Of a stretch of 64,000 bases of DNA, positions 26,241-53,099 are shown one piece after another. Each line of letters starts with the position of its first letter. Positions within the stretch are counted from its first letter, which is position 1. The stretch lies in the NCBI GenBank assembly GCA_021797895.1, contig JAJZYW010000002.1, forward strand, positions 1-64,000. Reading direction: 5' to 3'. The DNA comes from Microcaldota archaeon (GTDB lineage Archaea; Micrarchaeota; Micrarchaeia; Micrarchaeales; Micrarchaeaceae). A program made the position numbers and the translations under genes. The notes below the pieces were generated by a model. That model was not told where the DNA came from. It did no database searches and worked only from the letters and a program-made list of their open reading frames with translations.

Positions 26241-26358
26241 GGCGGGGTAGCTTAGCCTGGTAGAGCGCTAGACTCATATGCACAGCACTATGAGTGTTGA
26301 GCCTTTTTGGCGATGACGAGAAATCTAGAGGTCGTGGGTTCAAATCCCACCCCCGCCA
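26241..26358 (+). tRNA. tRNA-Met (CAT), elongator type, with intron
   Basis: Acceptor GGCGGGG/CCCCGCC with discriminator A, D-arm GCTTAGCCTGGTAGAGC, anticodon stem CTAGA/TCTAG and T-arm GTGGG-TTCAAAT-CCCAC form a full cloverleaf. The anticodon CAT is at 26275-26277. A 44-base intron (26279-26322) sits between positions 37 and 38. The junctions fit a bulge-helix-bulge: TA^T on the 5' side, AA^A on the 3' side, CTC pairing with GAG between. The G1-C72 pair favours elongator Met; a tRNA-Ile with modified C34 is the alternative. Confidence 0.9.
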
Positions 26359-45227: not shown

Positions 45228-45325
45228 GCCGCTGTAGCTTAGTGGGAGAGCGTCCGGCTGAAGTTCTGCTTGTCAATAGCGGATCAAAAACCGGTAGATC
45301 GCAGGTTCAAATCCTGCCAGCGGCA
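45228..45325 (+). tRNA. tRNA-Phe (GAA) with intron
   Basis: Acceptor GCCGCTG/CAGCGGC plus A, D-arm GCTTAGTGGGAGAGC, T-arm GCAGG-TTCAAAT-CCTGC. The anticodon loop is CTGAAG|A with anticodon GAA at 45260-45262. A 26-base intron (45264-45289) lies between positions 37 and 38. Splice sites form a bulge-helix-bulge: AG^T and AA^A bulges, a short central helix TGA/TCA and intron helix TCTGC/GCGGA. The outer anticodon-stem pair is T27-T43, a mismatch. Confidence 0.9.
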
Positions 45326-50254: not shown

Positions 50255-50534
50255 AGCGCAGAAATGCTTAAAAACTCATGCTGTGATGCGTATTCAGTGA
50301 ATTAATAGGTGAAAAATATGGATCCAGGACGCGGAAGCAGTGGTTTGGTTGGCGAGGGTAAGGATGACCCGGGACGCGGAAACAGTGGCTTTGTTGGAAA
50401 GGGCAAAGATGATCCTGAGCGTGGAAGCACAGGTTTTGTTGGTGAAGGCAAGGATGACCCAGGACGCGGAGACACAGGCTGAACAGATTTTTCTTGTTGG
50501 CTTTTCCTCATTTTGTTAGTGAATAGTTTATCTT
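50255..50534. repeat. Copy 1 of a duplicated small-protein locus
   Basis: The promoter-leader sequence agcgcagaaatgcttaaaaa, the ORF start, the ORF end and the flank to ttagtgaatagtttatctt recur at 50643-50787. This copy carries the 54-aa repeat ORF. Its 3' flank encodes, on the minus strand, SAFQKINYSLTK and a stop, mirroring the end of the 469-aa Lrp-like gene (SAYPKINYSLKK). Confidence 0.75.
50318..50482 (+). CDS. 54-aa protein of three and a half 15-residue repeats
   Basis: ATG 50318 to TGA 50480-50482. After the initial Met the product is made of DPGRGSSGLVGEGKD, DPGRGNSGFVGKGKD, DPERGSTGFVGEGKD and the partial DPGRGDTG. The repeats are degenerate at synonymous positions, so the protein sequence is being conserved. 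AATAGGTGAAAAAT supplies a Shine-Dalgarno site at the correct distance, and gcttaaaaac (about 50266-50275) is a TATA-like box. No signal peptide or membrane helix is present. Composition (Gly, Asp, Arg, Pro, Ser/Thr) suggests an unfolded repeat protein or a precursor of processed peptides. It is shorter than the ORF-track cutoff. I know of no such family. Confidence 0.65.
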   Translation: MDPGRGSSGLVGEGKDDPGRGNSGFVGKGKDDPERGSTGFVGEGKDDPGRGDTG

Positions 50535-50642
50535 TTGAAATGCGCTTGTCGTATGCGGCTTTCTCCTGTTATGCTGCGAAGTATGCCATTTATGCAAGAA
50601 CTGCATGATGGCAATTATGCGGTGGATGCAGATACACCGCAA

Positions 50643-50787
50643 AGCGCAGAAATGCTTAAAAACCCATGCTGTGATTGAATCTCAGTAAATTAATAGGTGA
50701 AAAATATGGATCCAGGACACGGAAGTACAGGCTGAACATGCTTTTCTTGTTAGCTTTTACTCATTTTTTTAGTGAATAGTTTATCTT
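50643..50787. repeat. Copy 2 of the duplicated small-protein locus, internally deleted
   Basis: This copy is aligned with copy 1 with the same 63-base distance from agcgcag to the ATG, and again from acaggctga to the end of the shared flank (61 bases each). The internal repeats are missing. Its right end overlaps the 3' end of the Lrp-like gene (stop at 50761-50763). The two starts are 388 bases apart. Confidence 0.75.
50706..50735 (+). CDS. 9-residue mini-ORF, deleted paralogue of the repeat protein
   Basis: ATG 50706 to TGA 50733-50735 encodes MDPGHGSTG, that is the first repeat start joined to the last repeat end. It retains the TATA-like gcttaaaaac and the GGTGA site of copy 1. This may be an active short peptide or a decayed copy produced by repeat recombination; the sequence alone cannot tell. 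Confidence 0.4.
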   Translation: MDPGHGSTG

Positions 50788-52170
50788 CGGATATGCACTC
50801 TTTTCTCCGTACTCAATCAGTATTCTGTTCTGGTTGGAGTAATAGTTGTCGAATCTCCTGATTCCTATGCTGCCAGCTACGATATCAGACACTATTGATA
50901 TGCGTACCGCATCGCTTCCTGTGGATTCTTCTATGTCGTGCGACAGTCTGCTCGAATCGCCATCGTTGAAGATAGGCGAGATGTACAGGCCGCCCTCTAT
51001 GTCTGTTATGTCGCCTACGAAAGCATGCTTGTTTACTATGTTGCTTTCCCCTATTATGTTGCGTAGTATGCTCTTGATTCTTCCAGACCAATCGTTCTGG
51101 TTGTGCTTTGCGACATGGAATATCGCTTCATATTTCATCTGCAGCCCTGCAATGTTTATTGTCGGCCTTTTTATTATGCCCTGCTCAAGAAGCCGAAGGT
51201 AGGTGTACCTTGATGCTCCGCCTTCCAGCCCCAAGCCTGAATCCATCTCTGCAAAGCTGATTGAGGAATTCTGGTTCATCAGGCTCAGGACGTCGTACTC
51301 TCTTTTCCATATGGTTCCAGCTGTCTTTTTCGGCGAATCCTTTGTACGCCTGTATACTTTGGATTGCAGCATCTTCTCGAAGAATTCCTGCCTTAGTGGC
51401 ACGTAGCCGTACGTATTGTAGAAAAGTATCACCTTCCACTCCATGCTGTAGCCTGGAAGTATGCTTGAGCGCAGGTTGTACAGCATCTCCTTTGCCCTGT
51501 CTATGCTGTTCTCAACAAGGACGTACATGAAGAGGTCGTAGTCCCCCTTTGTTAGAGCTGCGAACTGGACCATCGGCTCGGATTCTACAGCTGCCTTTAT
51601 CTCCTCAAATTGGGGCTTCTTATCAAGGAACTTCGCGTTCACTATATAGTATACGTATCCAAGCTTCTCTACGTTTATCTCAAGTGTATATTTTATACCG
51701 AGCTTCTTTTCTAGGGCGAGTATGCTGTACCGCGTCCTTGGCTGCGACCAGCCCAGCATCTTGCCAAGATACTGCTGCGATATCCTCGAATTCATGCTGA
51801 GAGCCTGCAGTATAAACAAATCACGCTCGTCAAGCTTGGGCTGGATGATTTGAGCCTCAGAATCGTTTCTCACGGATCCCTCTTGCTGCAGCCCTGCCTG
51901 ATCCGCATACCTCGCTTTGTCAACACGCTGCCTTCTTGCCTGGTATCTGTGCCTTGCAGGTATGAAGAGGCCGCTCTGATTTATCCTGCCAAGGTACCTG
52001 CTTTTCCTGACGCTGCTCTCAGTATCTGCATCTCTTATTGCTAAACGTTCGTATACGCAATAGCTCCCGTTTATAAGCCTTATCTCGATATTTGGGCTGT
52101 ATTCCCTCTGCAAAGCCTCGAACGCAGCCCTTATCGGCTCCGGCGCTGAGTCTATCACCCTTGTCATCAT
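50761..52170 (-). CDS. Two-winged-helix Lrp/AsnC-like regulator with transposase-like N-terminal module
   Basis: This 469-aa protein has a first part (about 30-75, NGSYCVYERLAIRD and RKSRYLGRINQSGLFIPA) that resembles the N-terminal Y-V-Y-E ... R-Y-L-G-R/K-I motif of many transposases and related archaeal regulators. An HTH follows (LDERDLFILQALSMNSRISQQYLGKMLG, about 113-140), then an Lrp-type alpha-beta ligand-binding region (AALTKGDYDLFMYVLVE). A second winged helix lies at about 285-330 (KREYDVLSLMNQNSSISFAEMD). The gene is convergent with the duplicated small-protein locus and shares its 3' end with it. Its start is preceded by A+T-rich sequence. Targets are unknown. Confidence 0.75.
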   Translation of the reverse strand: MMTRVIDSAPEPIRAAFEALQREYSPNIEIRLINGSYCVYERLAIRDADTESSVRKSRYLGRINQSGLFIPARHRYQARRQRVDKARYADQAGLQQEGSVRNDSEAQIIQPKLDERDLFILQALSMNSRISQQYLGKMLGWSQPRTRYSILALEKKLGIKYTLEINVEKLGYVYYIVNAKFLDKKPQFEEIKAAVESEPMVQFAALTKGDYDLFMYVLVENSIDRAKEMLYNLRSSILPGYSMEWKVILFYNTYGYVPLRQEFFEKMLQSKVYRRTKDSPKKTAGTIWKREYDVLSLMNQNSSISFAEMDSGLGLEGGASRYTYLRLLEQGIIKRPTINIAGLQMKYEAIFHVAKHNQNDWSGRIKSILRNIIGESNIVNKHAFVGDITDIEGGLYISPIFNDGDSSRLSHDIEESTGSDAVRISIVSDIVAGSIGIRRFDNYYSNQNRILIEYGEKSAYPKINYSLKK

Positions 52171-52492: not shown

Positions 52493-52504
52493 TTGGTGGT
52501 TTGG

Positions 52505-52762
52505 ATGCACGTATGGGAAATAAAGTTTGTGCTGTCCCTTCCCGTTTTGGGAAAGTGGGCAAGGAAGAAGCGCGACAAGTGGGTTTTTGAGGACGACCCG
52601 AACAATAAGCGCCCTGTTGTAGGGATTGCGCTCAGCAAGATTGCATTCATGTACGTGTGGGGCGACATGCCGATAAAGGATCAGCTCAGCGAGTACGACT
52701 TCAAGAGGTTCCTTGAATACAACAACATAACTGAGTATGATCTTCCTGAGAAGTACAGGTAA
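52505..52762 (+). CDS. Hypothetical protein, 85 aa
   Basis: From ATG 52505 (GGTGGTTTGG upstream) the 85-aa product begins MHVWEIKFVLSLPVLGKWARKKRDKW and contains two short hydrophobic stretches that are too weak to be clear membrane helices. The central FEDDPNNKRPVVGIALSKIAFMYVWGD and the C-terminal KRFLEYNNITEYDLPEKYR suggest a compact alpha/beta fold. No family is recognised. It overlaps no other gene; the next starts 20 bases on. Confidence 0.6.
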   Translation: MHVWEIKFVLSLPVLGKWARKKRDKWVFEDDPNNKRPVVGIALSKIAFMYVWGDMPIKDQLSEYDFKRFLEYNNITEYDLPEKYR

Positions 52763-52781
52763 TATTAAATGGGTGGGGAGC

Positions 52782-53099
52782 ATGGGCAGTACTAAAAACA
52801 CCAGAAGCAACGGAAACCTTGTCGAGACGACAAGGTCTGGGAAGAGGTTCTACAGGCTCTATTTTATTAAGCCCCCAATAAAGGCTGAAATGGAAGACCT
52901 CGGCGACGAGCTGATAAGGATGAACGAGGTAGAGGAGGTTTTCCTTACAGATGGCGACTATGGCTATGTCGTCAAGGCGCGCTTTGACGAGGAGAAGGAG
53001 CCCTCAAACGTGGAGCGCTTCCTGCAGAAGCGCCTTGGGAACCGCTACGGCAAGGTTACTGCTTTTGACAAGTACGGTCCGGTGCGCAGGATGCAGTAA
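52782..53099 (+). CDS. Hypothetical small protein with ACT/RAM-like fold
   Basis: From ATG 52782 (GGTGGGGAGC upstream) the product has 105 aa. A basic N-terminus (GSTKNTRSNGNLVETTRSGKRFYRLY) precedes an alpha/beta stretch, PPIKAEMEDLGDELIRMNEVEEVFLTDGDYGYVVKARFDEEKE, whose pattern (helix, then DGDYGYVVKA strand pair) resembles the ligand-binding part of Lrp-type regulators. There is no DNA-binding domain. The function is unknown; an effector or antagonist of Lrp-like proteins is one guess. Confidence 0.6.
   Translation: MGSTKNTRSNGNLVETTRSGKRFYRLYFIKPPIKAEMEDLGDELIRMNEVEEVFLTDGDYGYVVKARFDEEKEPSNVERFLQKRLGNRYGKVTAFDKYGPVRRMQ

Follow-up and report, generated by a model that had tools for sequence, protein, structure and literature searches.

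Among described systems, the closest to the locus analyzed here are the RRNPP-type peptide-receptor systems of Gram-positive bacteria, which include Rap/Phr, PlcR/PapR, the AimR arbitrium system and Alo of Paenibacillus (PMC7425212). A survey of quorum-sensing homologues in CPR and DPANN genomes covered only relatives of known systems (PMC7567580), and our search of the open-licence literature for Micrarchaeota in connection with peptide signalling, quorum sensing or Lrp/AsnC turned up no account of such a system, which is weak evidence of absence. The second point of comparison is provided by regulators of the Lrp/AsnC (FFRP) family such as LrpA, LysM and BarR, in which an HTH_AsnC domain is combined with an Lrp ligand-binding domain. 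The known ligands of this family are amino acids and not peptides.

The locus lies in a stretch of 64,000 nucleotides (the window; contig JAJZYW010000002.1) from a Microcaldota archaeon. As in the RRNPP-type systems, a small gene for a short peptide adjoins and co-diversifies with its cognate regulator, and many diverged pairs are present per genome. In contrast to these systems, the candidate receptor is a tandem Lrp/AsnC protein with no TPR model among its Pfam matches, the micropeptide gene is convergent, its ORF is already only 5-14 aa long without a secretion leader or N-terminal signal, and the Opp importer component SBP_bac_5 (PF00496) was not found in 31 genomes of the order. With LrpA, LysM and BarR the regulators share HTH_AsnC, a probable Lrp ligand-binding domain and the occurrence of solo ligand-binding proteins, but they are two to three times as long, carry an additional HTH/ligand-binding-like module as well as an N-terminal domain that Pfam does not recognize, and have a micropeptide gene as a steady partner. 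About a hundred glycine-rich micropeptide genes of Micrarchaeota arranged tail-to-tail with such regulators point to a so far undescribed form of peptide-controlled gene regulation in archaea. Leaderless micro-ORFs are not known to be combined with Lrp-type regulators in any other system; the function that this genetic module most resembles, a peptide with its cognate regulator, is of a known kind.

The 54-residue repeat ORF

The ORF at 50318-50482 (+ strand) extends from ATG to TGA and is supported by reading of the sequence, by TRF and by a 91% identical ORF in G002, a relative of the same genus. As proposed in the preliminary description, its 54 codons comprise three full units (50321-50365, 50366-50410 and 50411-50455) and one partial unit (50456-50479), with the layout M-[DPGRGSSGLVGEGKD]-[DPGRGNSGFVGKGKD]-[DPERGSTGFVGEGKD]-DPGRGDTG, and they form the strongest tandem array of the window according to TRF (period 45, 3.3 copies, score 175). 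The long form can be read as MDPGHGSTG-like units joined by a (L/F)VG(E/K)GKD spacer. The TATA-like box and ribosome-binding site described earlier are present as well: the promoter and leader (50255-50317, +) contain the TATA-like CTTAAAAA about 50 nt upstream of the ORF (approximately 50268-50275), a conserved element, CATGCTGTGATGCGTATTCAGTG, and the Shine-Dalgarno (SD) sequence GGTGA (50308-50312) 5 nt before the ATG. Since the window is also identical over 10,162 bp to JAMCYP010000005.1, a public contig assigned to another bin, the ORF is not an assembly artefact. No RNA family was detected at the locus, as Rfam gave only tRNAs on the window, and a weak protein match in G039 (E 0.16), located inside an unrelated region, was discarded as chance.

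The repeats had been reported to differ more at synonymous positions than in their residues, with selection at the protein level as the implication, and both statements are supported. Codon position 3 takes 24 of the 32 differences among the 45-bp units, and pN/pS is approximately 0.2 among the units (pS 0.596 and pN 0.128 in G000) as well as between species. G002, a different species of the same genus, keeps the 54-aa frame; frame-breaking changes, named earlier as evidence that would speak against the ORF, were found in none of the three genus members, and the changes seen in relatives keep the frame. The statement that the protein is unlike any family stands with regard to named families, but not beyond them, since the ORF belongs to a family of micropeptide genes located beside Lrp-type regulators.

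Approximately 390 bp downstream of the long gene, the complete gene occurs once more in unexpanded form (50643-50790, +): promoter, leader and 3' end are shared, but only one unit is present. Its promoter and leader (50643-50705, +) precede a 9-aa micropeptide ORF, MDPGHGSTG (50706-50735, +), whose counterparts beside the same regulator are MDPGRGSTG in G002 and MDPGRGDSG in G001. Similarity between the copies runs from the promoter and leader through the start and the end into the 3' flank (identities of 92% and 85%), and the promoters are 92% identical to each other. Alignment of the two copies further revealed a duplicated remnant of the regulator 3' end (KINYSLTK; 50508-50545, - strand), which identifies the duplicated block as the micropeptide gene plus the regulator 3' end. 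Given a single-unit neighbor with the same flanks, the 54-mer would most simply have arisen from the gene of a 9-residue peptide by unit duplication. Between G000 and G002 the two copies have exchanged their 3' ends, indicating that they recombine.

This recombination, together with the presence of the long form in two species only, would also fit the alternative that the 54-aa ORF is a functionless by-product of tandem duplication and only its single-unit neighbor matters. However, the frame is kept in both species and pN/pS is equally low within and between them, and we regard this explanation as unlikely. Among the roles offered earlier, a precursor that is cut into peptides appears to fit best, the neighboring paralogue being exactly one unit, whereas nothing speaks for a structural filament or for a tail that binds metal or nucleic acid. 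In yeast alpha-factor-type precursors, one ORF likewise encodes several near-identical peptide units with spacers; the likeness is a resemblance only, and the 54-mer differs in lacking both a signal peptide and a known protease site, and in its unit of 15 residues in an archaeon. An independent multi-unit micropeptide, the 25-mer MKGGTNGGKIIGGPHSGIVGGPHGG, is located beside the single-unit MKGGPNGGR at L087 (G032:C1) and parallels the arrangement in the window. Judged by their sequences, the 54-mer and this 25-mer resemble precursors with several units, or a means of raising the peptide dose.

The convergent tandem regulator

The 469-aa protein encoded convergently at 50761-52170 (-) was recognized as an Lrp/AsnC-type regulator by Pfam, LysM/LrpA profiles and LrpA-type chains in the PDB. 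It consists of an N-terminal domain without Pfam match, an HTH_AsnC and a probable Lrp ligand-binding domain, and a second HTH/ligand-binding-like module. The AsnC-type winged HTH was matched by PF13404 (28.3 bits, cut-off 27, 1.6e-6) and PF13412 (31.8 bits, cut-off 21.9, 1.1e-7), while PF01037 gave 17.6 bits against a cut-off of 25 (E 0.0036) on the window regulator and 25.9 on the protein of L076. The profile of the regulator family matches Lrp chains in the PDB through the first ligand-binding (RAM-like) domain (residues 166-280; 51331-51675, -), with LrpA-type chains reaching 4e-12, and the LysM/LrpA profiles match the window regulator with a second stretch at residues 290-362. Family members are 440-530 aa long, unlike the typical architecture of a single HTH and a single ligand-binding domain in about 150 aa, and the groups within the family are 26-33% identical to one another. 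Within the archaeal family, 74 of 85 genomes encode such regulators, with 1-12 members each. Across the phylum the count is 123 of 292 genomes, which in practice belong to two families of one order. No relative of the window regulator was found in viral contigs, nor did PHROGs give a match to it. G227, a genome from another family of the order, contains a near-equal match to the regulator.

A third part of the locus, divergent from the regulator, is a solo Lrp ligand-binding protein of 120 aa (52737-53099, +), to which PF01037 gave E=3e-5 and 24.2 bits, just below the cut-off of 25. In 39 of 112 loci, from 16 genera, a solo ligand-binding gene (approximately 110 aa) is found at the equivalent position and in the same orientation. 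Just upstream of it in the window lies a conserved 89-aa ORF without Pfam match (52493-52762), a relative of which is also located beside the regulator of L081 (5737-6003).

In arrays, copies of the regulator 3' end spanning 74-109 codons lie between micropeptide genes, and examples were seen in L071 (6720-7013), L076 (1915-2244), L077 (1787-2116) and L080 (143-367). These copies might act as silent donors in recombination events that replace the end of the regulator, or they may be no more than duplication scars.

Micropeptide genes are paired tail-to-tail with regulators

Around 130 regulator loci, all from MAGs, were gathered and both flanks and both strands were scanned. Under a strict rule (SD, ATG ORF of 4-30 aa, TATA at -35 to -66 and at least 25% Gly within 500 bp), which like our other peptide-calling rules was tuned after examples had been seen, 38 of 87 loci were positive at the 3' end on the strand opposite to the regulator. 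Elsewhere the rule returned 0/87 (3', same strand), 0/79 (5', same strand) and 2/79 (5', opposite strand; one of them belonging to a neighboring regulator), while the 3' ends of 90 control genes gave 2 positives and shuffled sequences 0.04. When only SD and ORF were demanded, 58 of 87 regulator loci were positive versus 6 of 90 control ends and 9.0 in shuffles. In the genus of the window and in G068 and G103, all micropeptide genes with a flank not truncated by a contig end are tail-to-tail with a gene for a 440-510 aa protein of the regulator family or a copied 3' piece of one. Overall, the pairing is seen in two families that belong to the same archaeal order, the micro-ORFs are mostly 6-11 aa long, and the gap between the two genes is often 5-100 bp. 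The micro-ORFs are convergent with the neighboring gene and not upstream of or co-transcribed with it, an arrangement different from that of attenuator leaders. Under a looser rule, 56 of 125 regulators remained without a called micropeptide, in some cases due to the thresholds and in others perhaps through a true lack; a clade effect on these regulators was not clear (38 changes versus 41 in shuffles). The Kae1 gene adjoins micropeptide genes or modules in L070, L072 and L080, which represent different genera, and SUI1 does so in two of them, hinting that this position is old and shared.

A single rule yielded 96 micropeptide genes in 41 genomes, with a modal length of 7-9 aa and a glycine content of 52% (the rule demands 25%), followed by S, N, D, T, A and P. 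Most of the micro-ORFs encode 4-16 hydrophilic, glycine-rich residues without a hydrophobic segment. The promoter of the long gene recurs in the genus ahead of other glycine-rich ORFs of 9-14 aa in G000, G001 and G002; the genus micro-ORFs behind this shared promoter encode MEGGATGGTGP, MEGGAGGQADP, MMGGTASGGAGGA, MMGGTATGGAGGA, MMGGGASGGTGA, MMGGNSSGTGSGGA, MNGGGASGGGTGA, MVSGAGEKGGQ, MMGGSGEKGGH and MMGGAGEKGGQ (both within one unit), MGGFGKEGS and MGGFGGSGS. G103, which represents another genus of the family, encodes MMGGPKGG and MMGGANGG, and the micropeptides of the second family include MGGNGGGS, MGPDG, MNPEG, MNGSY, MMNGSY, MEGSY and MVGGG. Candidates with good promoters but less glycine (MKGEH, MRIGDT and MTDPNDGHP) were also observed. 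Pairs of micropeptide genes from the same genus exhibit a third-position excess (63/38/93). In G068 one promoter is followed by five 9-codon ORFs with an SD each, and the SD is likewise repeated before each of five tandem ORFs in G069.

Many paralogous pairs of a small peptide and a DNA-binding protein could also represent toxin-antitoxin or antagonistic modules, with a toxic or protective micropeptide that the regulator controls or neutralizes. The composition given above is, however, unlike that of hydrophobic type I toxins, and the type I arrangement of a hydrophobic membrane-active protein with an antisense RNA is not matched. PADLOC gave no match for the window proteins, the regulator included, and only HTH-level CasR/Csa3 matches in a relative. 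We consider a toxin module very improbable.

Micropeptide promoters have a similarity of 0.57 within a genus, despite regulators that are less than 45% identical, and of 0.41 between genera. Between TATA and SD, TTCCATTTTGCTGTGAAATATAAATATT is common to the genus of G103 and CCATACTGTGAT....ATTCAGTAAATT to the genus of the window, and we infer that this conserved element is a common operator. In the genome of the window, a sequence model of the promoter matched micropeptide genes only (E<=0.01), so no wider regulon is visible there. The genus consensus also contains a palindrome, TACTG-N11-CAGTA, on which we base no operator claim. T-tract terminators are clear in the genus of the window, and were rejected as general support (35 of 96 genes versus 32 expected).

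Peptides co-vary with the first ligand-binding domain

Among 57 non-redundant pairs, peptide distance was correlated with the distance of the first ligand-binding domain (rho 0.40, 0/300 permutations; partial 0.33 after the other regulator domains), with the reservation that Mantel-type tests of this kind are inflated by shared ancestry, which was only partly controlled. Little or no correlation was seen with the first HTH. The peak was located at regulator residues 226-250 (51421-51495, -; rho 0.48, or 0.37 as a partial correlation that accounts for whole-protein distance), which take in a portion of a helix together with the final strand of a beta-alpha-beta-beta-alpha-beta pattern, in a model that is poor (pLDDT 38.4). 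Shuffling peptides within genera left an excess (r 0.484 versus 0.264+-0.058, 0/1000). Peptide themes are kept across genera with related regulators, as in GGNDGGK/GGSDGGK, NGSY/EGSY, KGGPNGG/KGPNGT and MMGGAGGC/MGGSGGC. This co-variation is the strongest hint, although not proof, that the first ligand-binding domain may bind the peptide.

It also bears on the alternative that the short transcript matters rather than the peptide, with RNA or transcription antisense into the regulator 3' end tuning the regulator gene. The strict tail-to-tail order, often at 5-100 bp, and the extreme shortness of the ORFs are in line with such a role, but the codon-level constraint on the micro-ORFs, the separate SD that each of the five consecutive ORFs has in both G068 and G069, and the co-variation of peptide and regulator all argue for a translated product, which makes a purely transcriptional function quite unlikely.

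A proposed peptide effector model

The reading that we prefer, at a probability of roughly 0.58, is that the micropeptide would act as effector of its cognate tandem Lrp/AsnC-type regulator in a feedback loop. The short promoter would drive a leaderless gene of few codons, whose glycine-rich product (MDPGHGSTG, or its four-unit 54-aa expansion) would serve as ligand of the tail-to-tail regulator. Binding of the peptide to the first Lrp ligand-binding domain would alter DNA binding by the regulator, the element between TATA box and SD being the probable operator of the paired or a sister regulator, an arrangement that would close the loop. The 54-mer is perhaps a precursor, as a multi-unit version of the ligand peptide, and a greater dose or variety of peptide could be reached by alternative routes: several SD-ORFs in tandem, duplication of the whole gene, or expansion of units in frame.

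If the pairing is one of ligand and receptor, a host-dependent archaeal order spends as many as a dozen loci, in genomes of less than a megabase, on peptide-controlled regulators, through genes that are invisible to standard annotation because their ORFs are only 5-14 codons long. The ligands of the Lrp family would then include peptides encoded by genes in addition to amino acids, and even five or six codons could make up a conserved protein-coding unit. Self-sensing and the sensing of partners by Micrarchaeota would also become accessible to testing.

A narrower form of this effector model holds that micropeptides or cut 54-mer units leave the cell as pheromones, to be sensed by the regulators of kin or to influence an archaeal partner. 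It is suggested by short, varied peptides with cognate regulators in 1-12 paralogous pairs per genome, and by the multi-unit, precursor-like forms (the window 54-mer and the L087 25-mer), as in Gram-positive peptide signalling (PMC7425212). On the other hand, the micropeptides have no signal or leader segment, and the oligopeptide-binding protein SBP_bac_5, present in 11 of 14 control genomes, is absent from the 31 genomes of the order, which keeps this form of the model doubtful. A large system of peptide communication in Micrarchaeota, in which leaderless peptides of 5-14 residues and multi-unit precursors signal between cells or to a partner, with tandem Lrp-type receptors and many private channels per genome, is likewise a doubtful proposal; if correct, it would constitute a peptide pheromone system in archaea.

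Additional observations

The contig that is identical to part of the window (L032, JAMCYP010000005.1; probably G227:C18) comes from a bin titled Candidatus Marsarchaeota; with the near-equal regulator match in G227, mis-binning appears likely. Elsewhere in the window, Rfam detected tRNAs of 118 and 98 bp at 26241-26358 and 45228-45325, respectively, that were missed by ARAGORN; these two long tRNAs probably contain introns.
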